Shown here one piece after another: positions 16,259 to 57,267 of a DNA stretch of 64,000 nt. The stretch is taken from positions 91,338,416 to 91,402,415 of the forward strand of contig NC_134840.1 of NCBI RefSeq assembly GCF_965363235.1. The letters are read 5' to 3'. Every line of letters starts with the position of its first letter. Position 1 is the stretch's first letter. The position numbers and the translations under genes are program-made. A model generated the notes under the pieces. That model was given only the letters and a program-made list of their open reading frames with translations. It was not told where the DNA came from and made no database searches. This stretch comes from Mytilus galloprovincialis (taxonomy: Eukaryota; Mollusca; Bivalvia; Mytilida; Mytilidae).

Positions 16259-19200
16259 TCAAAGGCTTTTATTGCGTTGTGGCTTTGAATTCTGTAATGC
16301 ATCAATATATATCCATTCCATTACTCTGTATGGTGATAATAAAGTACAGTCATCTTGTCCAGATATACTGCTGTCTGGGTTGGTTTCGGTTGTGTGGAAT
16401 CGAGTTGCTCCCACAAAAAGTCCCGTAGTGTTATACGTCAAATGTAAGTAAGCTCGATTCCAATGGTTTTTTGAAGACACGTTTACATCTTTAAGAAACT
16501 TTATTGGTCGTCCCTTTGCTTGATATCTTGATTGTGCAGTCCTCGATGATTTCGAAAATGCTAGCGTAAATGCATCCTAAAATAAATACAATTTGAAAAT
16601 AGTGGAAATAATTTTAAAATATCTACTGTATCAGCGTTATGAGATACGCGTAGAGTCGATTGTTTTATCACAAGATAAAAAAAAAACTATCTGCATGCCA
16701 AAATATTACTGATATAGTCATTTATCATATATTTAGTACGAAATACAGGAATTTTGTATCTAATTTTTGAATCTAATAGAGTTGTTTTACTCCAGTCTGT
16801 ATCATCTACCATGTATCGCATACTCCATATCGCAAAGATAAACCCGTATCGCATTACACGTATCGCACCCCTTTTGATACATCTCGTGATTATTTCTGGA
16901 ACTCCTCGGTTGTTATCCAATTGAAATATATTTATTAAATGACGTCAAGTTTGGACATACCTTGACGTCCAGTTGCCGTATTTCCTGGCATGATACGAAA
17001 TGTACCCACATCAAACAATAGTCAGAAAGAGGGCTAAGCAGCAGTATGTTAGACGACCATCTTTGTCAAGATTATTCATTTTAATCTAAAATTTGCCAGA
17101 CCACACCTTAGAATCTAATGATTTTCCCACATTAAGTGATAACATTTGGAAAAATTATACATTATTCTAACATGACGTCCTTCAAACGCTTTGAGTACAC
17201 ACCCGTGGTAAAATATGAATATATTGCCAGTGCTGTTCCGATTGTACTCCCACGTCATATGCTTTTTTATGAATGAGATACCCGACGTCATAGAACAATG
17301 ACGTTAGAATGTAAGCATTTTACGGGAAAATACACGCTTGTGAATCCGAAAATCATCACAAGGAAACATACACAAATGATGCTAAAATGTGGCAAAAGCC
17401 CTTTATTGTACATCATATAAGACATATAAATAAATTATCATTCAAATTCATCCAAAACTGTCTAAATACATTATTTTAAATAGTTTAAACATGTCACTAA
17501 TGCAGTTTGCTCCGTTCTTTTACGCTAGTTTATTAGTGCGTTTATTTATGGAAACGGCAAATATTTGCCTACACCTAGAGCGCTTCGATCCAAAAGAATT
17601 GCCGTATGTGTCCTATCAGAATCGAAATAATTCATGGGGGCTTGAATATATCTAGATTTTACCACGGGTTGTCCCTTTATGCCGATATTTTACCCCTCGC
17701 TATCGCTCAGGGGTAAAATATTTGTCATAAAGGGCCAACCCGTGGTAAAATCACGATATATTCAAGCCCCCATGAATTATTTCTTAATAATGTTAAACAG
17801 TAGCGTCTCCAGCATCACATGTTAGACAATTACAAATCAATACACAAGTGTGAATAAGTCTGGAACATATGTTCAGAACATCTATAATTTTATGTGTGAT
17901 AAGACAGTTATTTACTTCTAAAAATCTACCATGCTTCCACCACAGAATCAAACGGTTGTCCGCTTACATTTGTTAAATATATGATAAACAGATCAATACA
18001 TGGTAAAATCCGTATCGAATGCTGTATCACCACTCGAACAATATCAGCCCTCGGGACTGATATTAGTTTCTCGTGGTCATACAGCATGCGATACGGATTT
18101 TGCCATTTATTATTCTTTATATACGATCCTTCAAATTTAACAACAAATAAATGAATTTATTTTATGTATACTTAAATGTCTATGTTTTACACATAGAAAA
18201 AAAATTGTAGGATTAAATCAAAATAAGCTGTGAAAAGCATTATTTTACGTCGAATATACAAACTAGTATCAGAAGGATTTTAAGTGGCACGATCGTTTCT
18301 TTTGACAACCGGGTAACATGTGTAAATATTCTCCTTTTAAAGCTCGTTATTTATCAACATGTACAAATCGGTTGTTCATTCAAATTCAAAATGGATCAAC
18401 GTAGTCCCCTGAATTGCCGTTCCAGGTATACGATTTTACTTAAGTACTACAACTGAACCTGATTAATATCTTTGCATGATGCAGGATCTCCAAACTGGTT
18501 TGTTCCTATCATCTTCCTCACTACTTCTTGACTGGTCATTGTTGCTTTTAGTTGCAATGGACTCTGTGGATACACTGCGCTATCTTTCTGTCTTTTATCA
18601 AACATTATTGATGTTGAGCTAACAATCTGTAAATCGTCTGTCAGACTCGATGGATTTGGTTGTTTTTCCTTTCCAGCATTTTCAGAACCAGTTTCATGAT
18701 TTACAAACTAGATATAAAAAGTAATAAACTATTATTTTACTATAAAAAGGAGATACGGTGTGATTGCTAATGAGACAATACAAATAACTACAAATAATGG
18801 CCTTAGTTTTCTCCTTTGGATTGTTTTACATAGTCATATCGGGGCCTTTAATAGCTGACTATGCGGTATGGGCTTTGCTCATTGTTGAAGGCGGTACGGT
18901 GACCTATAGTTGTTAATGTCTGTTTCATTTTAGTCTCTTGTGGACAGTTGTCTCATTGGCAATCATATCACATCTTCTTTTTTATATTCAGCAATGGATG
19001 AGCCATATTCTACAGACGTCGCAAATATAATATAAGATTTTGCATGATTGCAAGTGAGATGATTGTAACTAACACCTAGAACCAACATCACGTAGATTTA
19101 AGCAACTATAGGTCACAATAATGACCTTCAAAAATGAGCAACACTTATTTCGTATAGTCAGCTATAGATTATGCCAAAATTACAAAATGTAGAACAATTC

Positions 19201-22200
19201 AAACGAAATAATCAAACGGCCTGATTTAAGACAAAACAATTGAAGAAAACAAAATATAACAAACAATAACCAACAATTACACTGAATCACAGGTTCCTGA
19301 CTTGTCAATCTTGTTTTACTATATGACAATATTTTCTTACACGCCATATGAAATAATCACTATGTATACCGTAATCTTTTTGTAAACATTTCATGTCTAG
19401 TACCAAATGAAAATAAATATATCAGTGAAATCTGAAAATTATAAAGTAGACAGCCAGAACAAAATAAATAAATATATATATATATATAATATATATATAG
19501 TACTGGTATACCTCAACTGATGTGGAATTGAGCAAATTAACAATAAGCTGTTGAGCAGTAGTTGTCCAGTGAGATACTAACTCTATGTTCTTGTCTAAAG
19601 CCTTCACCTGTGAAAGAGGCTGAAACAAAAATAAACATTCACTTGTTTTATCTGTATAGGGCAGTAATCATATTACGTAATCATCTGTAATGGCTTTTAA
19701 CACGTAAACCAGGTACCCACTGTTTTTTTCTTGAAATGTCTGTGCCAAGTCAGGAATATGACAGTTATTTAACATTCTTTACCAGCGTTAGTTGATATAG
19801 TAAAGTATGAATTTATCATGAAGTTTCGGCTATTTTTGATAAAACATGTTTTGATAAATTTACCAATGTGACGTGTCACCTAAAAGTAACTTCGGCATTT
19901 TCTGCATGAATCTTCAAGAAACTGTACACGTAATAATAATGTTACATTAATTTAACAGCGGGATAGATAGTACAAAATTACAAAATTGTCAAATAAACGA
20001 CTAACCAAATTTACCGCCCCCCCACCCCAAAAACCCAAGATATATTATATAAATAACACATAGCTGAGAGGGTGATAGAGCAGATCAAACTCCCCGGCAG
20101 TTCCAGTTCCGATCCGCATACGGGCCCGAATACTACTCTACACTAATGGATTGATGGAGTAAAGGAAAACAGTTCCGGAACGGAAACGATCACTGTCCGG
20201 AGTTTGAGAGCAGATTGTTACAAGGAGAAAACATTGTCAACTGAGGCGAAGCCAAGGTTGACAATGTCTTTTCGAGGGATAACAATCTGCTCTATCACCC
20301 TCTCAGATATGTGTTATTTAATTTATTATACTGAATGTTCTGTTATTATTGTCGATTAAATTTCAAATTCAAAGTAATAAACTATGACATATTGTACATA
20401 ACAACCATCCGATTTAATAAAGCGCTAACTTGATCAAGCGTCTCTGTGAAGGGTAATAGAGTATTTGCCATAGGATGTATTTAATAAAGCGCACACTTGA
20501 TTAAGCGTCTCAGTGAAGGGTAATAGAGTATTTGTCATAAGATAGAGTCGTATTTAATAAAGCGCACACTTTATCAAGCGTCTCCATGAAGGGTAATAGA
20601 GTAAATAAACAACCTCGTATTAGCCAATCAAAATCTGGCATTTTGACATGAAGTATAATAAATCTAAATATCTCGTATTCATGTCACAAGCAGAAATTCC
20701 TCTCTTAGGAGAGTTGGGAACCTGAAATCGAACAGAGCCCAGAACAGATCCGCCACCAACACTAAATTAATAAAAGATCATAAACTCGAGATCGATGTCC
20801 GGGTCCTCCACCATGTAATATATCTTAATAAATTCGGGGACTAAATGTAAGGTATAAAAGAAATAAAAACATTAAAAATTACAGAGCTGTGAATTATTAC
20901 ATCATTTGCTCTACTTTTTTTTATTTTCCAACAACAATACAATAGTAACCATCGTGAAAAACATGTAGTCAAACATAGAACAAATAAACAAGCTTCAACT
21001 TATTTTATTTAATACTTTTTGCTAATTAAATGATATAAATATATAATACCAAACTTACTTGAAGTAATAACTGAGTATTTGAGTACCCCTGATCCAGAAA
21101 AGCATGAGCTGCTGTCACGTTAGTCATTAAGACGTTTCGTGCAGATACCATGAATGCGCTCGTGTAGTCAGCTATAGTGTGATAGGCATCTAAGTGTGAC
21201 ACCTCTGGTGTTAAATCGTGTTCACCGTACCACCATGGTAGTTTGCCGAATGCAAATTGTCCGAAGTTTACACCTTCCATCACAATTACTGGAGTTTTGT
21301 ACTTTTGTGTTGGGTTTTGTGCAATATCTGCCTGTAACTCTCTAAATAAAGAAAATTTGGTTTAATTTACCTCTGCCAGTTGTGGAATAAAAGTATACCA
21401 GTAAATATATCATTTCAAAATACTCGTAGTTTTGGGATGATTTGATGTCTGAAGACTCTGAACTGTCCAAGTTAGAACACTTGCGGAAATTAGTTATGTA
21501 GATAAAGAAACATACAATCTAGGCAATAAATTGAGATAAAAAATGAAGACAACCGTAAATGAGTTTGATGGTTTAGGACAGTTATTCAGTTTGGTGACAA
21601 TAACATCCCATTCGTTCTACAGTCTATCACTTTTTTTATATATAATTTTGAATAAAATACATAATTTGATTTTGTATATCACAACTGGTTATGATGATCA
21701 AGTCTTTCAATTTAGTGGTATCACTTTTTTATATAGAAATACCAATACGCTAAAAAGCTACATTCCAAAGTATTGAATATTTGTTTTAACTTGTCCATAG
21801 AATTTTTATTTAATACACGTTATTTACCTTTTCTATATTGGACAACATTTGATGCTGACTATGTGTTTCATGTTGGTGACTTTTATAAGGTACTACTTGT
21901 TCCTATCTTTTGAAAGCCGTATAGTGACCTATATTGCCAACATCCAAGTCATCTGAATTCTGTGCGATATTTGTCTCATTGGCAATCATCTGCTTATTTT
22001 TAAACTAAAATTTTTGATTTTTTTAAAACTCGAAATTTCGCCTTTTTCTAAATTCAAAATTTTGACTTTTTAAAACTCAAAATTTCGACTTTTCCACAGT
22101 ATTTATACTGCGTTTTGCGTTTATCACATCCACAGTCATTTATATCAGCAAGCGGAGAGCCATATACATAATAAACTTGATAAGCATATTTTAATAAACT

Positions 22201-25200
22201 AAACCATTTTCAAGAGGTTATTTTAGATAGAAAATCTTGTTTTTGTCGAAGAATAATCAAAATATGTTTCACGTCTGAACTTCAGATATGTGTATCAAGG
22301 CAACCCCGTTATTCCGACACACCTATATAACAACATACTTTTCTTCAGTCTAATATATAAAGACAAGGGTTAATAGTTGTGTCAATAGAATGTCAATTTG
22401 TAGAGTTCAATCAATGTTCCAGAAAAAAGAACCATTATTTCAAAATTCAAAAACTAGAAAACCGAGCAGCTCATTTGTCGTCCTGAATATGCATTGCATT
22501 TTTGGCTACTTGATTTACCATTGTTTAAACAAGGCAAAGTCAGTTACTTGCTATTGGGAAACCAAACAGGCCTTTGAAACTGCGATGCTAAATGTTCTCA
22601 GATCTGACGATCCTATGACAGTGTCGTGGGAACTAAAACATGGAATATGGGAAAACATTTTTTTTTTTCTGTCAACATGCATGTTCTTTCCAAATTCAAT
22701 ATTAAATGCTAATTCATATCTTAATATCTTAATTTAAGAACAAATAAAATTTAAAATAGAAATGGGGAATCTGCCAAAGAGACAACAACCCGACCATAGA
22801 GCAGACAACAGCAGAAGGTCACCAACAGGTCTTGGAACAATGCAACGAGAAATTCCCGCACCCGGAGCTCGAGGCGTCCTTCAGAAAACCAATTTCTGAA
22901 TATAAATTGCCAATTGTGTGGATGACGCTTTAATAATTTGCGTCCATGTCTTCTCCTTCTAAAATTGTAATATTTAAATAACTGTGTTTGAATACTAACA
23001 TCAAAGTTTTAAAAGTACTTAGAAAAAGTCAAAATTTCGAGATTTCAACAGTCGAAATTTTAAGATCAAAGTAGAATTTCGATTTTAAAAAAAGTAGAAA
23101 TTTTGAGTTTACAAAAAGTAGAAATTTTGAGTTTAAAATAAGTTGAAATTTCGAGTATAAAATAAGTCGAAATTTCAAGTTTTAAAAAAGTCGAAATTTT
23201 GAGTTTAAAATAAGTTCAAATTTCGAGTTTTAAATAAGTCGAAATTTCGAGTTTCAAAAAAGTCTAAAATTTCGACTTTTCAAAAAGTCGAAATTTCAAG
23301 ATTTTAGAAAGTCAAAATTTCAAGTTTAAGTCAAAATTTCGGGATTTGAAAAGTCAAAATTTCAAGTTAAAGTCAAAATTGAGAGATTTGAAAAGTCAAA
23401 ATTTCGAATTTGAAAAAAGTTCACTGCCAATTTTATTATTTTTTCTATGTCCCTAATACGCTTCCGTAATAAACTACCGTCCAGTCTCACTTACCTGCAT
23501 CTGCTGTAAAATCATGGAACACATTGTAACAAGCCACATTATGACCCATGCTGACAAATATGATATACTTATACACATTACAACATGGATCCAGGAGAGG
23601 ACTATCCATGTATCCTGCGAGACACAACTGATAGACTTCATAAATGACATCACCATAAACATGGATGCAGGGAAACAGACAGACTGCCTAATTATGGATT
23701 TGTCAAAGGCGTTAGATAAAGTAGGTCACAGTTTACTAATACACAAACTGGATCACTATGGCATCAGAGGTAACGCCAACAAATGAATACATAATTTCCT
23801 TTCTGACAGGAAACAAGTGGTAGTTGTAGAAGGGGAAAATCTGACACAATCAATGTAGAATCAGGCGTCCCACAAGGCTCTGTACTTGGACCCAGTTTGT
23901 TCCTCTTCTACATAAATGACATACTAAGTACCAGAAGGTATTCGCTCAAGGGTTAAACTCTTTGCAGATGACACCATAGATTACCTTACCATTGAATCAG
24001 ATGCAGATAGTGTGAACCTACAAGAGGACATCAACAAGCATGCAATCTGGGAAACAAAATGGAAAATGGCCTTTCATCCTGATAAATGCAATGTAATCAC
24101 AAGAAAACGCAAACCTATAGTTAGAGAGTACAAATTGCATGAACACACAATGGCGAAACGAAACTTTAATTTCAGTAACACCACTATTAAGGAAACTGCA
24201 TACAAAACCTAGTCAGATCAACCTTGGCGTATGCTGCACAGTATGTGACCCTATCCAACAGAACAACAAACACCGGCTGGAAATGGTCAGTTTAAAATAA
24301 TCAGTTTGTTGATGGTGGCCCGCAAAATAATGGTAGAAGTAGAAGAGTAATGTAATTGATTGATTGGCATTTAACGTCACTTTCAGTACTGTGTGAGATA
24401 GATTTGCTTTTTTCTCTAGCTCATCGCTGTCAATAAAATTGTTTGTCTCTAAGAAGGGAAACAACTCACAAAATGGAAATTTTATCACAGGTCAATACGG
24501 GAGTTGGCATATAGACCATTCATCGAACATCTTCAAAAGTCATATTTCAAATCATTTTGTACATACTAGGTATTAAATGTTACATGCTCTGGTTCTACTA
24601 GTTCAGTTCAATAAAGAAAACATAACCAGTTACGCATGTTTAATTATGATCAATGATAATTGTTAATGAAAACTCACTCGAAGATGTCGACAATTTTTGT
24701 AACTCTCGTTAATCCGTCCAGATCTCCGCTTACGGTCAAAACAGGTGTCGGATATTTATTAAGAAGACTTCCACCCGGTAGATATGAAGAATACAACAAA
24801 ACTCCGCCAAGAAGGTGACTCGAAAAAAGTCCAAAACGAGCAGCTACTATACCTTCAAAATAAACAATTGTTAGTAGAAACTATAGTATTAGCTGAAATT
24901 ATCAGGTTCTTTTTAGTGTGTTTCAGGTGAAAAGTTCTGGATATCCAAAACGTTAAAGTGGGAGTAGAAGGACGAATGAATCACCATATATTACTCGGGG
25001 ATATATTAAACATGAATAAATGCCGGTCAGACAGTTTATAAGCTTAGTCTGTGAAGAACTGCGATAAATTTTTGAATATGAATTGATCAATGCACTTTCA
25101 ATTTTTAAGAAAAGGAATTTAGAATATTTGAAAAGAAAATGGATAATATTTATATAACAAATCTAATTAAATTTGAGCAATACAGTTAATCCGGATAAAA

Positions 25201-28200
25201 CATTTATAGAAGTGTATTGTGGTCATATTATGTAGAATTCCTGATTTTTCAGGGATTATGTAGAATCACTAAACTCATTAGTGATTAAATATAATCCCTG
25301 AAAATGACCAGTGATTTTACATAATCACTGAACATTTTACTAATTATTTTACAAATTCCATAAGATGATTTCAGGAATTATCAATAATGAAAAATAAATA
25401 AATAAGGGAAAGTGATATTTTATTTAACTGTACGTTGAACCACATTATTTCACAAACAAATAAGTATGACAGGGGAAAATTTAAATTGGCTTTCAAGATA
25501 TGGACAAGGAAATACATGTACAATGGTATTTTTACATTGATGACAAAAGAACCAAGTAAAAGAGAATATAATCTCCTGCTTAATTTTATCTGCTAACAAA
25601 CAAAGTATATATTTATATTGTTTTACAGCCGATTTCTTAAAGGAGGATAATATACTAACGAGCAAGCAAGCTAACCAAAGATATTACCTTAAGCTACACA
25701 CTCATTTAAATCGGCTGTAAGGCTGTTATTATCCTATATATTTCTTACATATCACACTCTTTACAGCATTATGCATTACTATAGGAGGGGACGGGGTTGG
25801 TGGGCATGGATCTAAAAATAGATAGTCTTAAATATCTAACATATAATTTTTTGTAAAAAGCAAAAGTTATAGAAAAATTCATTTGGTCAAACTATAATGT
25901 ATATACTCTTACCTCCATCTCCATGTCCAGCTAGGAAAGTCGACATTCCTTTGTATCCATGAGTTTTTAAATGTGTAAATGCCGATAGAAATGCCAATGG
26001 CATGTCGGCAAGAAATGGCTGTTCATCAAATATGGCAACCCATAGTTTCAAATCACTTCGTCGTATGATCTCCTCAGCTGCAAATTTTAAATCATTTGTA
26101 ATTAAAAAAAAACCTAGCAGTTGCTCGTTTATCTTGCTTTCGTTCTAAACAGACCAAGAACATGCCAAAGATTTTTTTTTATAACGGAAAATAGAATAAA
26201 ATAAACGTTTACTTTTCTACATTGGTTAGAGGTATAGGGGGGAGGGTTGAGATCTCACAAACATGTTTAACCCCGCCGCATTTTTGCGCCTGTCCCAAGT
26301 CAGGAGCCTCTGGCCTTTGTTAGTCTTGTATTATTTTAATTTTAGTTTCTTGTGTACAATTTGGAAATTAGTATGGCGTTCATTATCACTGGACTAGTAT
26401 ATATTTGTTTAGGGGCCAGCTGAAGGACGCCTCCGGGTGCGGGAATTTCTCGCTACATTGAAGACCTGTTGGTGACCCTCTGCTGTTGTTTTTTTATTTG
26501 GTCGGGTTGTTGTCTCTTTGGCACATTCCCCATTTCCATTCTCAATTTTATTTATAGATAACCAAACATTTCATTACAAAAACTGTAATGAAAATCTGAC
26601 TGTTTCTCGGTAAGTATTGGGAGATTCTTGTTTAATCAGTTGTGTCCCTCATTTTAAGTGACGAAGAAAGGAATTAAATTTATATGAGACAAAATATATG
26701 TTCAGGGACACTATGCCATTTGACACTATCTTAAGACCATTTTTAGTGAAGGGGATCAAAATTGTAAATTTTCATTTAATTCTTTATTAAGTTAACCTCA
26801 CAATAAAAAAAAAAGTTTACTACGTTTTAAATATGATCGATGATCCCCTAAACTACCACGACATTAAGCTTTGTACATATTGAACACTGATATCGTATCT
26901 TTGAATATTGTTTTTATTTGTATATTGAGTTTGTTATCAGTAAACTAAAACCAAATTTAATATTATTGTTATATACATATACATATTGATGGCTATACAA
27001 TCTGTCGATACCTGTATCTTGGCATCGCATAAGGTCATGTTTTTTTTCTGACTGTTTATGACGTCTTTAAACTTAAAACGTTGATAATTTAGTCTTCGAT
27101 GCATGAAATTTTGTTATTTGCTTTGAACTAGATGTTAGTAACTGCGAGTACTCTCAGATCTGTACTTACTGTCTTTTTAGAGATTAAAAGGCTGATTGTG
27201 TCTATCATATCTTAACGTCCAGTATGTTGATCCAACAGACAAAGCTTCAAATAATATTGTATTTGTATGTAAATCGTTATACCACGAGATTCCATTGAAC
27301 AACAAATGGGAGGACTTGCCTTGTATGTATTATATACCTAAGCCTCACAAAATGCCGTACAAACAACGGTGCATTGCCGGCTCAATTGCATGTTCGACAA
27401 AAGAATTGTCCATTATATTGATAACAATTCTGTCCATAGTGAAAGAGGGTCTTCAGAAATACTGTAAAACTGTTAACTCGCGTAGTGGTTTTAACCATGT
27501 GTGGATTCTAAAAAAAACTCTAAAGAACTCCTGGATAATTCTAAATCTCGATCTTCTTCTGAAATTAGTTCTATCAAAACTTTTGATTTTTTTACCCTGT
27601 ATACCACCATTCCCCATGTTTTATTCATGTGAAATTGAAAATCGTCTTGAAGAAATAATCTGCAATGCTTTTCAACATAAAAATGATAGCATACGCTATA
27701 AATTCATTACTTTGGGATACCATACGGCATGTTTTGTAAATAGTGACCAAACAAGGTAAAACATGATACACAGAGGAACAAGTGATCAGTATGCTGGAGT
27801 TTCTTATCGACAACATGTTTGTTTAATTTAGAGGTATACGTTTTCAACAAATTGTCGGCATTGTTGGAATAAACTTTGCGTCTGTGCGTGCCGACCTCTT
27901 TTTTTTTCATATGAATCGGAGTTCCTGCAGACCCTTGTCAAATACAAGTAGATCATTTAATTTCATTTTCAGATATTTTGATGATGTTTTTTTTATCTAT
28001 TTACAATCCAAAATTTTCTGATTGAGTTCCATTAATATATCCACCAGAACTAGAAATTAAAGAAAAAACAGACACGACTTCCTCTGTCTCATGTTTGGAC
28101 TTATACCTCAAATTTGATATACACGGTCCTCTCAGTACCAGAATCAATTTCCCCAACCTTAGTAGCAATATACAGTGGCGGATCCAGGGGGGGGGGGGGT

Positions 28201-30509: not shown

Positions 30510-30875
30510 AAACTAAACACGAGTACGCTCTATGACGTTACTTATCAATATGTTTCGGAAATAATAATCCAATAAATGACCTTGACAAGGTTCTTCCGAA
30601 CCTAACAGATGCTGATTTCCCATCGCGAAGGGTTTTCCTATAATGTGTATAAAAGAATCAACATTCATATGTCATGGTCTACCTGCATGACATGATTGAA
30701 CATCCTTTTTATCGAAATACAGAATTCTCGAAGCATATTATCGTTTTTCACAGCATATTATATACTATTCTTGTGCTATTTTCACATTTCCTGACCGGTG
30801 TGAGAAAAATATTTCTCCTCACTAGTGAAAAATCCGTTCTCGGCAAATGATTAGTCGAAATTTGATTATGACGTC

Positions 30876-32400: not shown

Positions 32401-32439
32401 TAACGTTTATTTTTGTTGCAGTTCGGTGCTTCTGTTGTT

Positions 32440-35260: not shown

Positions 35261-35265
35261 AGATT

Positions 35266-42600: not shown

Positions 42601-45600
42601 TTATTTTTATCCTACAATTTAACATTAAAGAATTGCAAATATTGTCTTTTATTTTGTCATGAACTGGGATTTTTTTTAATGCAGCCCTTAATGACCCCTG
42701 ATCTATAACATTTACAGTAATTATAATATTACCGTTCGTCTCTAACAGAAGCAGGATATTGGGAAATGAAAAAGGTGTTCACTGTTCAAACAAAGCAATA
42801 ATAGTATGTAGGTCTTAATTTATTGGGTAATTGCAGGATAAAATGATTTCAAACAAAATATGCATAAACAAGAAACAATAATAATATTTCATTACAAAGC
42901 GTTCAGATAGCTTGAATTGTACCCTTTGAGGTTTTTGTTTTCGTTTCTTTGAAGTTACAAAAGATAAAATTACATTACTATTAAACTTAAATGCAAATCC
43001 AGTTCTTGTTAAAAGAAAATGTGAAGTCCACTACTAGGAGAAGAACGGAGACTTATATAAAGCAACACAGATCAGAGTGTATTCACAGTTGCAATTGAGT
43101 TCTCCGTAAACGTTTTTTTGTTTGCAAACTTTTCTTAGTAATGGACTTCTAGAAATATGAAAATATAGAGCAATTTATTGTACATAAACTAACTATGGAA
43201 ATGGATTTCTTGTGCAATCATTTCATTGTGAATGAAATGAGAAGCGGAAAAGGCATGCACAATGTTTAAATCCGAATGTATATCACAAAGGTTCATCATT
43301 TTGAATTATGAACGTGCATGATTAGATTTAAGTAAAATTGGTTTGAAGAAATATCAGATAATCTTTTCTAGAAGCTTTATCACAAAAGTAAAACTATAGA
43401 TTAAATATATATATCAAAAGGATATGAAAACATCATGCCATAATTTGAGTCTACCTCCTAAGCCGTGACCAGCTAGAAAGACTTTGTCGCCTTCAAAGCC
43501 AGCATTCAGCAACTGCTTACAAGCACCGTTGAATTTAAGAGGGAATAAAAGTGAAGTTGGTGTGCTCTCTAAAACCACAACCCATAATCTCATAGTACTT
43601 CTGCTCTGTAATACTTTTGCTGAAAGAGAACATGATCAGATAGATTAAAAGTGAAAGAGCATAAAAATGTGTTCTACCTCCATCACCATGGCCTGCTAGA
43701 AATACTTTATCTCCACGGAAACCTTTATCCACTAACTCGTTACATGCATAGTTGAATTCAAAAGGGAATGCTAATGAACCTGGTTTCGTCTCTAAAATTG
43801 CAACCCATAAGCTGAGAGCGCTGCGGATCTGTATTGCGTTAGCTGAAACATCATCCATGTGATATGTATTGAAAGCTAAGTTAAATTACTAAGACTAAAC
43901 AAGAATGTATCAATAATAAGTCTTGTAAAGGGCGCGATATTACTAAATCACTTTACCAAGTCAGGAATATGACAGGTGCTATCCGTTCATTTGATGTGTT
44001 TGAGTATTTAATATTGTCAATTTTTTAGGGACTTTCCGTTTTGAATTTTCCTCGGAATTCAGTTTTTTTGTGATTTTACTTTTTACTATGACTTTCCTTT
44101 TCCATTTTGTTAATTAACTTTATGCATTTACAAGTTATTTCAGAATTGTATATGTGTTACTTGTTTCTACAATTTGATAATAGTATTAAACTTATCTGGC
44201 CAAATGAATTTAGCATGGAATTGTTGACAGAGCTTACATATTTGCACGTAATTCAAATATATATGTTAGAGAATTGACTATGATTGTCAGTTTTCCAACC
44301 GAATGTCGGCGGTTCTCTCTGGCTTCCTCCACCAAACAATACTGAGCGCATTGAATAATAATAGGATTTTTTTTAAATAACATTTAGTTATAACAATAGC
44401 TATAATATAAACTATATTTGACTTTTATACCCTTTACACAATATATTTCAGTTTACACACAGATAGACGAAAAGAATTAATCTTGCATTATTTCATTCAA
44501 ACATTGGTCATCGTAGATACAAATATAGATTCAAAACACTTAAGTGACGTTTTATGACGTGTTTTTAAACAAACAATCAGCAGTTCAATCGGAACCCGCT
44601 GTGGTCATCTTCTTACCGATTTGTTCCGTTACTAAAAAAGTTACATATTACACATGCAGTTTTGAGGAAAAATAAAAAGAAACTATTTCCTTCTGCTTAA
44701 ACTTTACGTTCCGCTTTTCAGGTGTGTCCCATTCCGAAATAAGTTTGGTGACAATGTTTAACGCTTATGTATTACCGAACTTGAAATACGATACACCAGT
44801 TACAGTTATGTCTGCTACGTATCTTGACGTACATCTCAAAATTGACGATGAAGATCGATCGAGAATAGTCATTACGCTAAAAAATTAGTTTAAGCTTCCC
44901 AATTGTGAACTTACCATTTCTATTTAATAACATTTAAGCAGCGTCTGCTTATATAGAATATATATATATCCGAGCCGATACAATATTTCACAGGTTGTAT
45001 TACTATAATGATTTCCATTATAGACAATTGCTGCTTACAATGAAGTTATTTAACGAAGGAGGTGAGGTTGAAGTCATACCATCGTAAATTTTACGGACGC
45101 CATACTTTGATCAACCGTTATGTAATATCTGTTTCGAAAATGACGATGGATATGTTTAATTTTTCGTAGCGCAATTCCATCCTTTTTCCTCGAAAGGGAT
45201 ATCATCAAATTACATTTATCGCCGATTTTGTACCGTCATGAGCAACACGACCGGTACCTCATGTGAAACATAATTTACTCAACCTTCTGGAGTGACTTTT
45301 TTCAGTATTTTGTATGCTATGTTTTGTATACTGTTATTTGCCTCTAGATATTGTTTTGTTTTTTGCAATGTCGTTTTCAATTTGCAACCGACTTTTGTAT
45401 CTTTCGCCTTCCTTTTTCTAGTGTATGAATATATATATAAAAAACAGTTGGTTTTTTTTCCTCGGTGTTTTAAATATAATTATTCAGATGAAAATCTAAT
45501 TAGAGGCATGTTGTAACGCATTTGAATAAGAAAAGAAAACATGGATTGTGTTATCCATGTAACATGTTTGTATATTTCATTGTATTTGTGTCATTCATTA

Positions 45601-47755
45601 ACATTCCAATTTATTGTTTGGATTTTATACCTATAAGATATTATATATTATCTTTTAAAAAGATAAACCAACAAGTATGCATTCATCTATACTGTGTCTT
45701 AATAACTATGCTTGTATATTCAAGCCAGCTTTGTTTGTATTATATTTACGCTATACATTTTATTAAACGACATCACAACATTTAATCATTTAATATATGA
45801 ATATATATTATCATCTCATCCATGTATTGTTTATCATCTTTATTGATTTGTAAAAATTATGTTGTTCCTTACAATTTAACAAAAGTTTGTTTTAGTTTTA
45901 TGGGTTTGACTGTCCCTTTGGTATCTTTCGTCCCTCTTTTAACAACTGAGATAATCTAATAATAGCTACATGAACAACGCCATCTTATTTCAAATTCAAT
46001 CTTAGTTGACAAGGATTGTCAGTTTTCCTCACGATGAGAACTCCGACTTCCTCCACCAATTAGAACTGACCGCCACGAAATAGCACAATAGTGTTAAAAG
46101 TGGCATTAAACACTTATCAATCAATCAAATTCGATAGACCGTTTGGAAAAATTTCCACTAAATTTCTCATTTTCAAATTTTACTCATTATTTTGAAATAC
46201 TGACACTATTCTGACTTATTTAAAATCATTCGACCAAATTACAAATGTAAAACTATATCTAAAACTTCAAAAGGTTTTATATTTGTACAACGTAATGCAT
46301 AAGGACATTCTAAACTAAAACAAAATTTACATAAAAGATAACAGGATAACAGGTATCTCAATATTTTGTACCAAATTGAAGTTCACTTTATACCACACAA
46401 AACCTCCTTCACAAAAAAATAGACGTTCAAACAAACGATAACGAACAAGACGGTATAGGTATCATGACTTGTACAAGACGGTATAGATATCATGACTTAT
46501 ACAACACGGTATAGATATCATGACGTGTACAACACGGTATAGATATCATGCGTGTACAACACGGTATAGATATCATGACGTGTACAACACGGTAAAGATA
46601 TCATTACGAGTACAACACGGTATAGATATCATGACGTGTACAACACGGTATACATATCATGACGTGTACAACACGGTATAGATATCATGACGTGTACAAC
46701 ACGGTATAGATATCATGTCGTGTACAACACGGGATAGATATCATGACGTGTACAACACGGTATAGATATAATGATGTGTACAACACGGTATAGTTGTCAT
46801 GACGTGTACAACACGGTATAGATATCATGACTTGTACAACACGGAATAGATATCATTACTTGTACATGAATGTTATGAGTTGGGATAAACCAGATTTTTG
46901 TAAGCTGCTCCTCGCCTATTGTCATTGTACTCTTTCTGGAGTACAGAAATACGAGTTGTCAGACACAAGGTAGTCATTTAATAAAGATGTCACCCACGAT
47001 GTAAAATTTTACAAAAACAGATAAAAATTTAAATTTTGTGTAAAAAGTCATTAAAAGTTAACGTGGTAATTATTTTGAAAAATATTTAAGTATTTTTTGT
47101 AGATCTGTATATTAACATTCTTGTTGACTTTTGATAACTCTTTCATGTTTAACCTATGAGTGAACACACATACTGAAGCAACTGGCCATAACTCCAAGAT
47201 TTTGCTTCTCAGTTAAAATACATGCACAATGTATTTACGAATTCATTGTTTAGTGACCTGTATTTCTTACACATTAATTTGTTTTGCCTCGGTCAGACGT
47301 ATTCATGAAGATGTGCGATTTAAATTGAATTTATCTTTCGATAAAATTCATTTCATTTTTTCAGTTGCCTTTCTTTTCGATTTGCAATACCATTTTTGAT
47401 ACCAGTATAATACGGGTAATTCAGATGCATCGACTTTATACGTAAAATATTGCAGTATTAAGTAAATCTCGCTAATATTATTCAATATGTTATTCCAAAA
47501 TTCAGTTAAACGGTATATAATCCTATTCCCATAAGTTAATTTAAATTATCGAAAAACCATTATATTCTTAGATTGTTTAGTCCTCTTACCTAGAGGCTTA
47601 TACGCAGCTCCTGATATAGACGAATCCGGGACTATCACTATTGCAGCTTCCAATCCAGTTTTGTTCGGAGCCATAACAGTTACTTTTATACTCAAACATG
47701 ATTGAATGCACAAAGAAAACAAAACTATTTTAAATATTGTATCCATTTTGTCCAA
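36658..47755 (-). CDS. Secreted alpha/beta-hydrolase-fold protein, copy B, predicted pseudoenzyme with duplicated exon 2, 480 aa
   Basis: Minus-strand exons: 47590-47755, then 43678-43842 (2a) or 43455-43619 (2b), then 41778-41958, 39438-39711, 38776-38883, 37934-38173 and 36658-36966. Phases equal those of copies A and C. With one exon 2 the coding length is 1443 bases. The signal peptide is MDTIFKIVLFSLCIQSCLS or starts three residues earlier. The nucleophile elbow reads GHGDGG (2a) or GHGLGG (2b), so Gly108 replaces Ser. The Asp motif SGDLDGITR is kept. The histidine position is Tyr197 in NYGQF. Cys pair ATCQDIN and DDCTLLSP is conserved. Exon 3 uses the first of two AGs, since the second would run into a stop. 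The exon 3-4 intron holds a tandem duplication. Function unknown; loss of hydrolysis is inferred. Confidence 0.88.
37255..37330 (-). repeat. Diverged fragment of the GACGAAACGCGCGTC repeat family
   Basis: GGCGTCACTGATTAGTC and GTGTAGACGAAGC resemble the conserved core at 13680-13765. It lies in the last intron of hydrolase B. Confidence 0.5.
40291..41530. repeat. Tandem duplication, two full units and one partial, in a hydrolase B intron
   Basis: ACGAGTCTAAATTGAAAACT starts blocks at about 40291, 40843 and 41457. The first two carry the same ~550-600 bp, including TTGACTAACAGGTCGAACAA and TAGGGATCGAAACGGTATTT. The second unit is longer because AGTACCCTCATTTTTAGAAA is repeated four times (about 41287-41365). 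The third unit stops near 41520. Confidence 0.85.
43455..43619 (-). CDS. Copy B alternative exon 2b (GHGLGG version)
   Basis: A 165-nt exon, phase 1 at both ends, acceptor TCTCTTTCAG and donor GTAGAC. It is open throughout and encodes LWVVVLES, then FNGACKQLL, then KVFLAGHGLG. 32 of 55 residues match exon 2a. It is either a mutually exclusive partner of 2a or, if both are used, an in-frame 55-residue addition. Confidence 0.82.
43678..43842 (-). CDS. Copy B alternative exon 2a (GHGDGG version)
   Basis: A 165-nt exon, phase 1 at both ends, acceptor GATGTTTCAG and donor GTAGAA. It encodes LWVAILET, then FNYACNELV, then KVFLAGHGDG. Exons 2a and 2b share a cysteine absent from exon 2 of copies A and C, which points to duplication inside copy B. 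Confidence 0.85.
44740..45270 (+). mobile_element. Small Penelope-like retroelement fragment, broken
   Basis: TYLDVHLKIDDEDRS near 44815 and KFYGRHTLINRYVISVSKM near 45088 are recognisable late reverse-transcriptase blocks of Penelope-like elements. The remnant is old and heavily broken, in intron 1 of hydrolase B and antisense to it. Confidence 0.65.
46010..46130 (+). repeat. SINE-like fragment with AATCAATCAAT tail
   Basis: Contains GATTGTCAGTTTTCCTCACG and ends TTAAACACTTATCAATCAAT. A head fragment (GATTGTCAGTTTTCCAACCG) occurs at 44283-44345. Confidence 0.55.
46440..46870. repeat. 28-bp minisatellite, about 15 units
   Basis: The unit is built from GACGTGTACAACACGG and TATAGATATCAT. Copies vary at a few positions. 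It sits in intron 1 of hydrolase B. Confidence 0.92.
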
Positions 47756-49746: not shown

Positions 49747-52700
49747 TTATGTAGTATTAGATTCTATTTGTGACTTTGTATATTTTAGAGAATCGATATA
49801 AATCCATTCCATTGCTCTGAATGGCGATATCAAAGTACAATCACTTTGTCCAGAATAGCTTTTCGTTGGCTGACTCATATCAGTATGGAATCTGGTAGCT
49901 GTTACAAAGAGACCTGTTTGATTATAGTTGAGATCTAATTGTGACTTAATCCATTGAAATTGTGATGAAACACTGACGTCCTCATTGAATACTATTCGTC
50001 TTCCTCTTGATGTGTACCTTTCCTTTGCGATCGGTGACGATTTGGCAAAAGCTAGTTCATAAGCATTCTAAAACATATTGGGTTTTTAATAAAGTATACG
50101 TCACAATCTATGTTATCATTTATCATTATGGATCATTAAAAATAACAACCTTGCGTGAAAAATATTTAAAGCAGAGAACTCAATTAATAGAGGCCATACC
50201 AAAAACAAACAGAATTGCCTTACCTGTCGATTTAAGATGAGTTTATTTACAATCACTGGGTCGATGCCACTGCTAGTGGAGATTTATTTCCCCGAGGGTA
50301 TCACAAGCCCAGTAGTCAGCACTGTTTGTGCTGACATGAATTATCATTGATATTGTTATATTTATAAATTAACTGTTTACAAAATTTTGAATTATTTAAA
50401 ATACTAAGGCTTTTCTACCTCAGGCATAGATTACCTTAGCTGTATTTGGCAAAACTTTTAGGAATTTTGGTCCTCAATGCTCCTCAACTTCGTACTTTAT
50501 TTTGGCCTTTTTAACTTTTTTGGATTCGAGCGCCACTGATGAGTCTTTTGTTGACGAAACGCGCGTCTGGCGTATATATTAAATTTAGTCCTGGTATCTA
50601 TGATGAGTTTATTTAAACATTCACGCTTTAATACAGGTTCCTGAATTTGATCACGGCATAATAAGACGGGTGACTAACGCGGAGCAAAATACTCTTTCAA
50701 GTTCATTATGATGCCTTTTCCTGTGTATTTCCAACGATTTAGCTGTCAGTCATAAATTATTTCTATTATTTCTGTTGTCTGAACTTTGTGTTCGGTGATA
50801 GTTTAATTACAAATTGCAGTTTCCAAACAGATATTTTACCAAATCCGTTGTTTTCAATTTGTCCTTTCCTTTCAATTACCAAACATTTATTCTAAGAATC
50901 ATTTGCATAGTTAATAAACATACCGTTCATATTTGATAATAACATAATTTCTTTGGGAAAAAATAGGTCTGACAATACCTGGTTGACTTCTTTACAGGAT
51001 GCCGATATTCCGAATTGGCTGGAGGGTAAAATCGTTTTGACAGCCTCTTGACTTTTCATTGTTGCTTTGAGTTGTAATGGACTCAGAGGAGATGTAGTTG
51101 AATCTAGAGGGTTTGGTTGCATCCATAAAGTTGTTAAACTTTCAATTTTTACATTATCTGACGGAAGTAAGACAGGTAATTCCTTTGGTAAAATGTCCAG
51201 TGATTCGTCTTCGTAGTTGATAAACTAATAAATTAGAGGTTAATTCAATTTGAACAAAAACGCTTTTCACGTTTGTAGTTCTGATAAAAGTGTACAAGTG
51301 TATAACATATAAATCATTGTGAAAAAATCGCGTCTTTTAATGAAAAAAAAAAACACAACACGTTATAAATGTTATGCTTCAGAAGCTTTCCTGGGTTGAT
51401 CTTCAACAGGATTGCTCAAAGCCGAATATTTGAAAGCCAAGATGGTGTTGACACGAATATCAATTATATGGTCATTTTTATAAATTTCCTGTTTACAAAA
51501 GTATGAATTTTTCAAAATAAATAAGGTTCTCTTATCCCAGGCATATATTACCTATAAGCTGTATTTGGCACAACTTTTTGGGATTTTGGGTCCTCAATGC
51601 TCTTCACTTTTGTACTTGTTTGGCTTTATAACTATTTTGATAGTGCCATTGATGAGTGTTATGTAGACGAAACGCGCGTCTGGTGTATTAAATTATAAGC
51701 CTGGTACCTTTGTTACTATTTATAACTACTGTCTGTACCAGGCGAGGAATAAGACAATCGATTTCCACTCGTGCCCTTAATTGATACAGTGGATCGTTGA
51801 TTTCGTCAGCTTTTATGGACTCCCCCTTCGTTGAATTTATATTGGAGGTCGGTATTTTTGTTTATGCATTTTTACGTACACATCAAATACTTTTGTAGGA
51901 TACAATCCACGTAGATCATGACAAATGGCTTATCTTCTGCTAACGATAAAGGTATTTATTTCTACTTTAACAGTTCTACTGAAAAGAAACGTTTATAGAA
52001 AATAATATTACCTCAACATCTGTTATATTTTTCAGACTGACAACGAGTTCCTGAGCAGTGTTAGTCCAGTGTGAGGTAAAATCTGGGTTTTGATCAAGAG
52101 CTTTCACTTTCGAGAGAGGCTAAAATGATACCAACATAAATAATGCGCTTCTAAAGCGGTGGCATGTTCAAAATACAATTAAAAGTATTAACAGATTTTT
52201 TACAGAATAATTTGATTGAAGTATAAACGTGAAATATAAAAAAGAATAATTTGATTCGAACTAAACCTATAATTTTAATTCTAACAAAAAATGTGAAAGC
52301 ATTGATTTCCCTTAAATGGCCTTATAGGGCAAGATCCTTATCAGACACAAGTACGAAGTATAACCATCTTTAGTTGAAAAAGAGCACAAAAACGTTCGCT
52401 GAGGAAAAAGGAAACCAAGATCTACAACAGTTAAACCAAAAAATAAACAACAAAAAAGTTTCAACAACAAAACTAGATTATTTATCAGAATACTTCCTTT
52501 TCATCTACCCTTTATACATCTAATGAAACTTTCTTTGAATCTTTAACAAATAATGTCATTGTGTATCCGCTATTTTGGTTTTAGTTTGAATTATTTTTGT
52601 GGTTTCCCTAGGCAAATCGTGGACTTTGCAACTGATTAATGTGCGGATGTAATCATTTTGTATCCACATCTCTGTTTAATCCCTCATATCAATGTGATGT

Positions 52701-55700
52701 TCTCTTATAAGAAGGTACTTAGAATAGAATCCTATACGGCTTCTAATTGGTTGATACAGGATTGGAATTATATTTAATCGAAAGCTTATCCAATTAGGAT
52801 TAACAATTGCCGAAAATTATATTCACATTTTACGAAGTATAGAAAATATCTTCCATTTCTGTACGTCGGACATTAAAAATATGCCTTTTTCATTTAGCGA
52901 AAAAAGTAAGCGATCTTTTTCGACTGCATTTTAAGTCAATTTGAGCCGCATGACCCTACATTTTTTTTAGTTGTAATGCCACACTGGCATTTTTAGTAAA
53001 AGGAAAATGCATTACGAATAATTGCGCTCTTGTAACCATGAGTTAATGGCTAGGTCGTTGCTTTTAATATGCAAGACGGGTTGATATCTTTTTGTGAGTA
53101 CCTCTCGTAATTACATATCATGGGGTTCTTAACGGCTTTCCTCAATGACAATTTTGACTTTCATAGACACTTCTGATTTAACAGTCTTTTATAGCAACGA
53201 CACTCTTTTTTAAGAATTCAAAATAAGTAGATCTAGTGGAAATTTAGTGGAAACGTTGATTCTACATTCCAATAGTCAGAATACGAGCTAGTATTTTGCT
53301 GTGTTTTGATATTTCTTATATAAATACTAGAAAAATTTGTCAAAAGACTACTAATAAAAAGCTGCGCCATGAGCGCATGATAAGCCCGTCGTCTCGTGTG
53401 TGAACTTTTATGCAATATTCATAAATAGTTTCTGACATACTGCGCAACATCTGAAAAAAAACAACCTTTTTTAACAAAAAAAACTCATTTACTCTAAAAT
53501 TAAATTTTGAATTATCACCAAAAAGTATACAGATCTTTAGATTGATATAGCTAAGAAGTGTGTAAAGTTTTAAGCAATAATCATAAATTGTTTTTTAATA
53601 TGGCGCGACATGTAACCCCCCCCCCCCCCCTCCTTATTTCTTTTTACAAAAATTCAATATCTCTAAAACAAAATATTGAATCAAAACCAAAAAGTATACC
53701 GATCTTTAGATTAATATAACTAAGAAATGTGTAAAGTTTTAAGCAATAATCATAAATCGTTTTTGAGATACGGCGCGACATGTGAAAAAAAAAACACATT
53801 CCCTGTTATAGTTACAAAGTCCCGTAACTCAAAAAAAAATGTTATCTTATTTTCACCAAAAGGTATACAGATTGTCTGACCATCATAAGAAACAACTATG
53901 TAAAGTTTTATGAAATTTGGATAAGTCGTTCACAAATTACGGTGCGACATGTTTACGCCGGACAGACAGACGACATTTGTATACCATAATAAATAAATTT
54001 GTTGTTTTTACTGTCTTCTGATTGGTTAAAATTATTAGTTTTATTTTCAATGTTGTCAATTTTGATGGCGACACGCCCACTCTGACGTTGTGTATTCATA
54101 CGCTAACATGTGTGTACGTTGTTATTGTTAATATAAATATTATAAAAAGTTCTTTGAGCCTTATTTTTGATAGAAATTTATTTATAATGAATGGCAATAA
54201 TTTATTTTGATTTTATTGAACCATAAAACTAATTGTTGACTCTTCACATTTTACATAATCCGCTTCGCGGATTATTCAATGTGAAGAGTCAAAAATTAGT
54301 TTTATGGTTCAATAAATTCAAATTAGATAATAGCCATTCATTAAATACGTAATAATGTTTTGACAGTTTTAACTAATAAAACATAATTATATTCACCTGC
54401 ATCATTGCAGCGGTTTTAGTATGACCGTCTTCTAAGATGTTTTTGGCTTTCGTTACATTGGTATCTGTTTCATTTCTGACGACTACCATGAAAGCGTTCG
54501 AGTAATTAGCTATGGTATTATATGCTACAGATTGAGATAACTCTGGATTTAGATCATGATCAGTTACAGGTTTGGGTAACGGACCCGAAGCGAACTGTCC
54601 ATGATTTATGCTCTCCATTACCACTACAGGTGTCCTGTATATTTGCTCTGGGTCACTTATTACGTCTTCTTGGAGTTCCCTGAAAATAGAAAAAAAATAT
54701 TGCACTTTTCAGACCTTGCAGTATTGGAAAATATAGTCAAGATAACATGAAAAATACGCTAAATGGACGATCTCAGATTTTCAATGACAATTATTTTTAT
54801 AGTTTTTTTACGGAAATGTCAGCCATATGGCGCATTGTTTGCCGTGTGTATTTCACAACTGGTACGCTTCGCTATAAATGTTTAATGGATCTTACCGAAC
54901 AAGTACGTTCTTTCTTGTTAACGTTATACGTGGTTCCATATAGGATTCTTATCACTAGTAAGTCGTTTTCATAAAAATGTATATATATATGTTATTTCTA
55001 ATTTTTTTATTTGAACTTCTTTTCCATTTATATGGTTATTATTGCATGGCTTATGTTTGCTGTTGTTAACAAGGGCGAAAGATACCAGAGGGACATTTAA
55101 AACTTACACATTAATTAAACATATATGAAAGTAAAAAAACAGCGTCTACCAAATAATCTCACTCGAATGTATCTACAATCCTTGTTATTCTAGTTAATCC
55201 ATCTAGGTCTCCGCTTATTGTCAGAACTGGGAATGGATACTCTTTTAGTTTGTTGTTCTTAGTAATGTAAGATGCGAATAACAACACTCCATCTAAAATA
55301 TGGTTCGCTTTTTGTCCATAAAGGGCTGCAACTTCACCTATAATTAAACTTCACATATAGTTGGTGGTAATTCAACTTAAAAAAGAGATTATGGCTATTT
55401 AAAGTTCGGTCTGATAGATTTTTTTAGCACTACAATTCAACGTTTCACTTATCTACTCAGAACATGAATTTTTCCTATGCCTTAGTTTTATAATACATAT
55501 GTTTGATTTATCTGCTGATGTTATAGCGCCACTTTATACAAAAAACGGTCAGATTTTACTTGTGGTGGAAGCTGTTGTACCCGGAGAGAACCAACATCAT
55601 TCAGCAGAAAAACTCGATATCCTAGTCAATTAAGACGTAAAACGCACAGGTCTGTCTCGTGCCTGGTTCGAACTCTTAAATTCACATATACAGTAGGTAT

Positions 55701-57267
55701 TATCAATATTTAGATATCTATACCATGGCTTATATAAAAAAGAAGATGTGGTATGATTGCCAATGAGACAACTGTCCACAAGAGACCAAAATGACACAGA
55801 CATTAACAACTATAGGTCACCGTACGGCCTTCAACAATGAGCAAAGCCCATACGGCATAGTCAGCTACAAAAGGCCCCGATAAGACAATGTAAAACAATT
55901 CACACGAGAAAACTAACGACCTTAATTATATAAAGAAATGAACGAAAAACAAATATGTAACACATAAACAAACGACAACCACTGAATTACAGGCTCCTGA
56001 CTTTGCACAGGCACATACTTATAAGCTTTTAAAACTCATACTATTGACAATGAGTTCGCTGTGTGAAGGCGTTTAAATGCTAAAAATATCTTATTTCACC
56101 TCGCTTTATGTTGTGCAAGATAGATGTTTAGAGTCAGGATCTGATGATCAATGTCGGGTACTAGTCTAAACCAATCAAATATTTATTTAGCTATCAATAT
56201 TTACATACAGTGTTATAATATAGAATACATACCTCCAAGACTATGTCCAGCCAAGAAAACTTTCTTCCCTTTATAACCTGCTTTTTGTAACTCATTGACA
56301 GCTTTTTTAAATACTATAGGAAGCTGGAGTGGGTTAGCAAGTTTATTGAAAAATCCGTCCAGTAAGGCAACCCATAACTTCAGATTGCTATTCTTCTGAA
56401 TGACTTCGGCTGTGGAAAATATTTATGTAAGTTATAGTTTGAGCAGTAAGTTATAAATGTATCACACGCAAACGAGAAAGTAAAATGTTAGAACATAGAA
56501 TTATTTTAAGTACAAGTGGTTTGAAACTTTAGTTCTCGTTATATACGTAGCTTGTTTGCACTTAAATTTAAGTTAAAATTGTGGGGCAAAATGTTTAAAG
56601 GGGAACAGCGATTCCACATTGTAAACCTCTTTATGGTCCATGATCATCCAAAATCATGTGTAGCACTAGACCCCAAATCTCTATTTGCATAGAGACAATG
56701 ATTGTTTTTATTAGCTCGTGTCAATGGTCCTAACTTATTTCACTTGAATTATAAAGAAAGTTTTCTGTTGTGTTTTAACATAGTTCTAGTTTGTAAGTTA
56801 CTGGTATTGTGTTACCTAGTCTGAAAAAGGAAAAAAAGGGGGGGGTAATAAAAAAAAATATGTAAGAATTGTTTGGTACCGTTTCTTTTATCAAAGTTTC
56901 CTATATCAAATCATATGACCTTAATCTAGTTAAATACCAGAACCATATTTTCAAGATCAAAAAGTCAAAAATAGTTTTTGTGGATATCAAATTTCAGTAT
57001 TTTGTTCTCTTACAACTCGTTGCAGGCTGAAATACAGGTTTGTTTTGTTCAAGTAATCACCCCTTATTTTAACTTATACGTTAACTCACCTAAAGGTTTA
57101 TATGCTGAACCTGAAATATACGCTCCAGGGACGATAATTAGTGCAGCTTCTGGTCCGGTATTGTTTGGCTTCAAAATTTCTACAGACAGACTTGAACAGA
57201 AAGGAAATTGCAAAATAGCACACAATGCCAACGCATGGATTTTCATTGTGTCCAAACTGTCTAACAC
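49747..57267 (-). CDS. Secreted alpha/beta-hydrolase, copy C, intact predicted catalytic triad, 495 aa
   Basis: Seven minus-strand exons: 57090-57267, 56233-56409, 55163-55337, 54397-54679, 52012-52119, 50979-51224 and 49747-50067. The 1488 bases stay open with phases 1,1,2,0,0,0. The signal peptide is MKIHALALCAILQFPFCSS, seven residues after the first Met. GHSLGG gives nucleophile Ser116; SGDLDGLTR gives Asp164 (or 162); NHGQF gives His203. This is the expected order and elbow of the alpha/beta-hydrolase superfamily, resembling esterases of the chlorophyllase/dienelactone-hydrolase type. The C-terminal third (exons 5-7, about residues 271-495) is shared with copies A and B and is not recognised; it holds the Cys pair ASCKEVN and SDCTLISP. 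It is the first of three tandem genes in the direction of transcription. Likely a secreted ester or amide hydrolase; substrate unknown. Confidence 0.9.
50240..50610 (-). repeat. Dispersed bivalve repeat, long copy
   Basis: Contains CCCGAGGGTATCACAAGCCC, TTTGGTCCTCAATGCTC and GACGAAACGCGCGTC, i.e. the whole family of 5322-5655 in reverse. In the last intron of hydrolase C. Confidence 0.8.
51400..51715 (-). repeat. Dispersed bivalve repeat
   Basis: Contains GGATTGCTCAAAGCCGAA, TTTTGGGTCCTCAATGCTC and GACGAAACGCGCGTC. In the exon 5-6 intron of hydrolase C. Confidence 0.75.
53420..53960. repeat. Three tandem ~175-bp diverged repeats
   Basis: Each unit contains CACCAAAAAGTATACAGATC or a variant, GTGTAAAGTTTTAAGCAATA and GCGCGACATGT. 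The last unit leads into TTTACGCCGGACAGACAGAC, a common molluscan repeat ending. A C-run (about 53617-53630) separates units 1 and 2. Confidence 0.8.
54186..54343. mobile_element. 158-bp near-perfect palindrome
   Basis: AATGAATGGCAATAATTTA pairs with TAGATAATAGCCATTCATT; TATTGAACCATAAAACTAAT with ATTAGTTTTATGGTTCAATA; GACTCTTCACATT with AATGTGAAGAGTC. The centre is AATCCGCTTCGCGGATT. It lies about 50 bp beyond the exon 4 donor of hydrolase C. Confidence 0.88.
55735..56010 (+). repeat. Dispersed mussel repeat, well-preserved copy
   Basis: Contains GATTGCCAATGAGACAACTG, ACTATAGGTCACCGTACGGC and ACTGAATTACAGGCTCCTGA. Relatives occur at 18745-19315 and 63795-63945. In the exon 2-3 intron of hydrolase C. 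Confidence 0.75.

Follow-up and report, generated by a model that had tools for sequence, protein, structure and literature searches.

A 64,000-nucleotide (nt) stretch of the Mytilus galloprovincialis genome (contig NC_134840.1, positions 91,338,416 to 91,402,415; here called the window) contains a tandem cluster of alpha/beta-hydrolase genes, A, B, and C, and two of these, A and B, along with a fourth copy, D, that lies outside the window, very probably encode maintained secreted pseudoenzymes. A, B, and D show homology to enzymes but lack the catalytic residues of that family, the property by which pseudoenzymes are recognized, and they stand beside one copy, C, whose catalytic triad is complete. 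An earlier note on this DNA had described a trio: its three members are real, but the cluster is a quartet, and a distant fifth copy, E, is present on another contig. D and E were recovered from searches of the complete genome sequence (1.385 Gb) in which C and B served as queries; match counts are lower bounds. All genome matches listed lie in the five genes A to E, and among these GxSxG occurs in C alone. A, B, C, and D share 48 to 55% identity among themselves, and E shares 23 to 25% with them. Intact copies that lack catalytic residues, next to one triad-bearing copy, suggest a second job, such as binding instead of cutting.

Gene A: 16259-30482, minus strand; 484 amino acids (aa); exons 30326-30482, 25913-26077, 24678-24852, 21059-21341, 19512-19619, 18459-18707, and 16259-16576.
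Gene B: 36658-47746, minus strand; 477 aa; exons 47590-47746, 43678-43842 or 43455-43619, 41778-41958, 39438-39711, 38776-38883, 37934-38173, and 36658-36966.
Gene C, putatively active: 49747-57246, minus strand; 488 aa; exons 57090-57246, 56233-56409, 55163-55337, 54397-54679, 52012-52119, 50979-51224, and 49747-50067.
Gene D: C3:91215214-91235224, same strand as A to C; seven exons, intron phases as in A to C; ~103 kb from the window.
Gene E: C7:53812078-53824489; seven exons with the same phases; distant paralogue on another contig.

Exon 2 carries the nucleophile elbow and exon 4 the histidine site, and these motifs of A, B, and C read as the earlier note had given them, with an Asp motif, SGDLDG, that is indeed the same in all three.

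C exon 2: 56233-56409 (motif 56232-56248), minus strand; nucleophile elbow GHSLGG with Ser109.
A exon 2: 25913-26077 (motif 25912-25928), minus strand; GHGDGG.
C exon 4: 54397-54679, minus strand; NHGQF with His196.
A exon 4: 21059-21341, minus strand; NFGQF where C has NHGQF.
B exon 4: 39438-39711, minus strand; NYGQF where C has NHGQF.

The triad of C is Ser109-Asp157-His196. In A, Ser is replaced by Gly105 and His by Phe192, and Asp153 is kept; these are the actual sites, in place of the residues 114, 160/162, and 201 proposed earlier. In B, Ser is replaced by Gly and His by Tyr, with an elbow that reads GHGDGG (exon 2a) or GHGLGG (exon 2b). D (AHGDGG, SGDLDG, NYGQF) has lost Ser and His as in B, and E (GHGQSG, GNLDG, NHGIF) has lost Ser and kept His. 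A full nucleophile-acid-His triad is thus present only in C; in A, B, and D only the Asp remains, and E keeps Asp and His. The window has four occurrences of the elbow pattern GGNCAYNNNNNNGGNGG, where 0.12 would be expected, and each falls in a different copy of exon 2.

Alignment places these replacements on the catalytic columns. When a profile built from A to E is aligned to solved hydrolases (best 9eh6, E value 6.9e-07), the family elbow lies on GHSLGG, which sets the Gly found in A, B, D, and E against the nucleophile Ser. Across the solved hydrolases and the cyanobacterial relatives described below, Gly stands in the nucleophile column and Phe or Tyr in the His column, so that a true nucleophile or histidine located elsewhere, which the earlier note had named as a refutation, is not borne out. 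The other refutation it named, an exon with GxSxG in A or B, also found no counterpart: no such exon 2 was found at A, B, or D, and a tblastn search with five exon 2 peptides against the window plus the surroundings of D (27 kb) and E (18 kb) returned no extra exon 2 bearing Ser. At E values below 1e-6, this search recovered only the five known copies (A, B 2a, B 2b, C, and D); exon 2 of E was matched weakly (E value 3), and other matches were short, with E values of at least 0.38. One of these, a GHSAGG string in intron 1 of E, was considered as a hidden exon and rejected, as it belongs to a dispersed repeat (C7:53822800-53823100) with 46 genome matches listed, itself included.

Relatives outside the animal were found in picocyanobacteria. 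With C as the query, a scan of prokaryote genomes yielded, among 70 candidate stretches, two loci that aligned to C residues 24-477 of 488, one from a Synechococcaceae bacterium (L006) and one from Cyanobium (L007). A third relative (L010) came from genomes of the same bacterial family, 3 of 400 of which match, including the two starting genomes. When 386 genomes sampled from the whole phylum were searched, there was no match beyond the starting genome, and the gene is therefore rare and patchy in the phylum. An earlier prokaryote genome scan with the five-protein alignment found no relatives, nor did two scans of viral contigs. The cyanobacterial relatives contain both the hydrolase and the C-terminal domain and end in an AMEWIYID motif as do the animal proteins; identity to the cyanobacterial protein P0001 is 25 to 28% for A to D and 21% for E. 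Unlike the animal genes, they are encoded in an uninterrupted frame with a long hydrophobic N terminus (by eye). Their triad is intact, with AHSVGG, GTLDG, and ASHMQF on the triad columns in all three. The finding exposes a family combining a hydrolase with this C-terminal domain that is common to an animal and a few picocyanobacteria. Adjacent to two of the cyanobacterial genes, an open frame of ~340 aa (L006:1801-2826 and L007:1792-2826; hydrophobic by eye, no Pfam match) stops within a few bases of the start of the hydrolase frame and is perhaps its operon partner.

Since these full-length relatives carry Ser-Asp-His, the active state is probably ancestral. In a tree including the three cyanobacterial sequences, C branches first, followed by B with (A,D), with support of 89.8/85 for A+B+D and 95.9/92 for A+D. 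On this best tree, Ser and His would have been lost once, in the common ancestor of A, B, and D, and Ser separately in E, whose loss is probably independent; regain of Ser and His in C would be a less simple course.

What else was lost and kept was assessed in the hydrolase domain (C residues 25-206) at reference sites that are identical in C and the three cyanobacterial proteins. Of 56 such sites, 34 are unchanged throughout A, B, and D, 16 are lost in one or two of them, and six are lost in all three: G41 (replaced by A, D, and A in A, B, and D, respectively), F72 (a gap), P79, S109 (G in each), V189 (I in each), and H196 (F, Y, and Y). E has Glu at the G41 position. G41 lies at the place of the oxyanion-hole loop in other members of the fold and is presumed to belong to it, an assignment made after the list of losses was seen; counting it, three of the four active-site positions are among the six joint losses (hypergeometric P = 0.003), and for Ser, Asp, and His alone P is 0.028. 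Losses are concentrated at the active site, although they are not confined to it (see below). Across seven aligned sequences, His108 and Asp157 (C numbering) do not vary.

Selection was measured with a codon model on 468 codons of A to D. The ratio of nonsynonymous to synonymous rates (omega) was 0.141 under a single rate and, with free branches, 0.184 for A, 0.173 for D, 0.140 for B, 0.152 for C, and 0.068 for the inner branch, the fit being hardly improved (log likelihood [lnL], -5839.5 versus -5840.6). Setting omega to 1 on A, D, B, and C cost 14.2, 26.3, 25.3, and 27.4, respectively, in twice the lnL difference (2dlnL) relative to the one-rate model. As a check less bound to synonymous divergence (dS), we mutated C without selection at 0.47 changes per codon, which gave a mean of 8.7 stop codons and no stop-free sequence in 500 replicates. 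Outside the lost sites, these values indicate purifying selection on A, B, and D about as strong as that on C. Purifying selection on A and B had been named beforehand as the test of whether they are maintained, and the outcome (omega of 0.18 and 0.14, versus 0.15 on C, with omega of 1 rejected), along with the stop-free frames and the lack of a GxSxG exon 2, supports that reading of both genes.

Gene B contains two neighboring copies of exon 2.

B exon 2a: 43678-43842, minus strand; 165 nt, phase 1-1; GHGDGG.
B exon 2b: 43455-43619, minus strand; 165 nt, phase 1-1; GHGLGG.
Intron between exons 2a and 2b: 43620-43677, minus strand; 58 nt.

Each copy has its own acceptor and donor sites, and the two are homologous neighboring exons of equal phase and equal length. 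The two agree at 113 of 165 nt and at 31 of 55 third positions, a divergence too great for a recent duplication. For this pair, omega is 0.245 over 55 codons (2dlnL of 10.6 against omega of 1), and both copies appear to be kept by selection. In a tree of exon 2 sequences, 2a and 2b are not clean sisters (E groups with B 2a, 83.8/55), and because this tree is unclear, a duplication inside B rests on identity (58% between 2a and 2b, versus 39 to 48% to A, C, and D) and on adjacency. The 58-nt intervening intron, short beside the 318 nt of the shortest intron in models A to E, suggests a steric block, and the two exons are therefore probably mutually exclusive; in another gene, branch points near the 5' splice site are reported to enforce such exclusivity (PMC7969005). 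The nucleophile position is Gly in both forms, and the choice of 2a or 2b would swap the elbow-bearing segment and could alter specificity.

With respect to family membership, C passes the cutoff of 27 bits for PF12695 (Abhydrolase_5) at 55 bits, and A (25.1) and B (26.8) fall just under it in the same scan of A, B, and C; A and B are assigned to Abhydrolase_5 by homology to C, not by score. C also passes PF12146 (Hydrolase_4), at 29.3 bits with a cutoff of 27. Neither the neutral lipase family (which we take to be PF00151) nor the NDRG family was matched by A, B, or C up to an E value of 1. For the C-terminal half, there was no Pfam match in A, B, C, and two cyanobacterial proteins and no solved relative better than an E value of 0.1; the match of this domain to the cyanobacterial relatives amounts to 49/181 sites in A, 47/176 in B, 49/181 in D, and 51/181 in C. 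The PF12695 profile run over the whole genome returned nothing at an E value of 0.1 or below, and this search is therefore blind to the A to E family, whose exons are split. All five proteins begin with a hydrophobic stretch, from which secretion is likely. Their next most hydrophobic 19-residue stretch scores only 1.07 to 1.61 (A and D reach 1.6 at residue 109, inside the hydrolase core), making a membrane form unlikely.

As to what A, B, and D do, we slightly favor an explanation in which the inactive proteins would hold a hydrophobic ester or lipid and C would cut the same class of compound; for carriage of a ligand as their role, the chances appear about even. On this model, A, B, and D would be secreted, inactive alpha/beta-hydrolases with an uncharacterized C-terminal domain, whose nucleophile, catalytic His, and presumed oxyanion-loop Gly would have been lost once in their ancestor. 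Gly in place of Ser would open the pocket, such that the ligand could be held and not cut, and the proteins might act as extracellular carriers or sequestering agents, like the noncatalytic lipase-like yolk proteins of flies. A broader version, in which the family as a whole turned into a secreted ligand-binding system, with nucleophile loss favored at least twice (in the ancestor of A, B, and D and in E), B having two dead pockets of different specificity, and C clearing the ligand, seems unlikely.

Several known proteins are comparable. The yolk proteins of flies are secreted and multicopy, and their catalytic Ser is replaced by Gly; ABHD5 belongs to a hydrolase family other than that of A, B, and D; and GID1, an intracellular plant receptor, has kept its Ser. 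Like A, B, and D, insect yolk proteins are lipase-like with an incomplete triad, and the noncatalytic lipases of insects, including the Cyclorrhaphan yolk proteins, are reportedly thought to bind lipid (PMC7240578). A, B, and D differ in belonging to another hydrolase family, in their ~270-aa C-terminal domain, and in having an intact-triad copy in the cluster. NDRG2 and NDRG3 also have the alpha/beta-hydrolase fold with catalytic residues replaced and are described as nonenzymatic; in them, however, all triad positions are replaced and helices block the path of the substrate, whereas A, B, and D keep Asp (PMC7022630). ABHD5 (CGI-58) is conserved, lacks the Ser nucleophile, and has a Ser-bearing sister, ABHD4; unlike A, B, and D, it is reported as an intracellular lipid droplet protein that activates another lipase (PMC5314347). 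In GID1, for which an origin in hormone-sensitive lipases has been suggested, loss of the catalytic His is proposed to have turned a hydrolase into a binder, as may have happened in A, B, and D, with gibberellin bound in the old pocket (PMC3531792). In a mussel transcriptome, the Pfam term "alpha/beta hydrolase fold" is reported as overrepresented in the digestive gland (PMC5549309); the term may or may not refer to the A to E family. Among the literature matches listed (titles and abstract starts), none describes the A to D cluster, and searches returned nothing on hydrolase pseudoenzymes of mussels or on mollusc pseudoenzymes with gene duplication and catalytic residues.

Several results weigh against this account of inactive binding proteins with a single ancestral loss. 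F72, P79, and V189, which lie outside the active site, were lost alike in A, B, and D, and in the C-terminal domain, where 34 of 51 reference sites are kept, nine were lost in all three; it is because of these sites that the losses are not confined to the active site. The omega values are rough, since synonymous divergence is saturated (~1 or more on most branches, with pairwise dS of 1.9 to 12.5). With the five animal sequences alone, the AD|BC split is supported, the root is not resolved, and the best tree puts E weakly with B. Support for the C-first root is moderate: its P value in the approximately unbiased (AU) test is 0.94, with 0.27 to 0.28 for the next root and 0.08 to 0.13 for two further rootings that are kept at the 5% level (LG+G4 and Q.pfam+G4), and under LG+C20+G4 the roots are not separated (AU, 0.77 versus 0.61). 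AlphaFold2 modeling of two cyanobacterial relatives gave a mean predicted local distance difference test (pLDDT) score of 32.5 and was set aside. Finally, annotation as a pseudoenzyme can mislead: USP53, so annotated, is reported to have later been found active (PMC12037411).

Other roles for the dead copies have to be set against ligand carriage. They could be protein partners that regulate C, either by binding to it or by competing for the protein that C itself binds, much as ABHD5, which has no nucleophile Ser, is reported to activate the lipase ATGL (PMC5314347). That A, B, C, and D have the same architecture and are clustered on a single strand fits such a role, as does the C-terminal domain, a possible contact surface that matches the cyanobacterial proteins about equally well in A, B, D, and C. 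However, E also lacks Ser and stands alone on another contig, and a partner would not need to lose His and the oxyanion-loop Gly; we regard regulation of C as an unlikely role. Binding of microbial esters or lipids, as secreted decoys or in immune recognition, appears more doubtful still: likely secretion, a multicopy cluster, and alternative exons would suit recognition, and bivalves are reported to have many secreted proteins with carbohydrate-binding domains that have been suggested as recognition receptors (PMC5549309), but branch-averaged omega gives no sign of positive selection.

It is very unlikely that the dead copies instead catalyze another, nonhydrolytic reaction through the His retained next to the elbow, the retained Asp, or the new Asp of GHGDGG. 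The invariance of His108 and Asp157 and the recurrence of GHGDGG or AHGDGG in A, B 2a, and D agree with such a reaction; against it, A, B, and D each lack all three of the nucleophile, the catalytic His, and the oxyanion-loop Gly, and the residue after the elbow Gly is Leu in B 2b and Gln in E, so that an Asp is not required there. Least credible, to the point of being nearly dismissed, is decay under relaxed constraint after duplication, with A, B, and D on the way to becoming pseudogenes. Loss of active-site residues and the slightly higher free-branch omega of A (0.18) and D (0.17) than of C (0.15), which brings no gain in fit, are what decay would predict, but omega of 1 is rejected on each branch, none of the 500 neutral replicates is free of stops, and all seven exons of each of A, B, and D, plus exon 2b, are open and have splice sites.

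The gene models on which these comparisons rest were rebuilt from the DNA. As the earlier note had it, A, B, and C share seven exons and identical intron phases (1,1,2,0,0,0); every frame is open, and GT..AG borders are present at 18 of 18 modeled introns. The 30 introns of models A to E (B in its 2a form) measure 318 to 8,890 nt. Of the features of A and B that the note called intact, the frames, splice sites, and C-terminal Cys pair (present in A, B, C, D, and E) hold, and the signal peptide is putative, read from the N-terminal hydrophobic stretch. The first ATG of C is at 57246, so that the end which the note gave to the cluster, 57267, falls 21 nt upstream of that codon. A Pfam scan of ten out of 191 open frames gave no match. 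Among the repeats, a tandem array of 28-nt units occupies 46384-46922 in intron 1 of B, and one of 74-nt units lies between B and A at 35266-35953, with one further copy at 36219-36300. Between exons 3 and 4 of B is a duplicated stretch (40325-41525) whose matching pieces are 552 to 615 nt apart and 95 to 98% alike.

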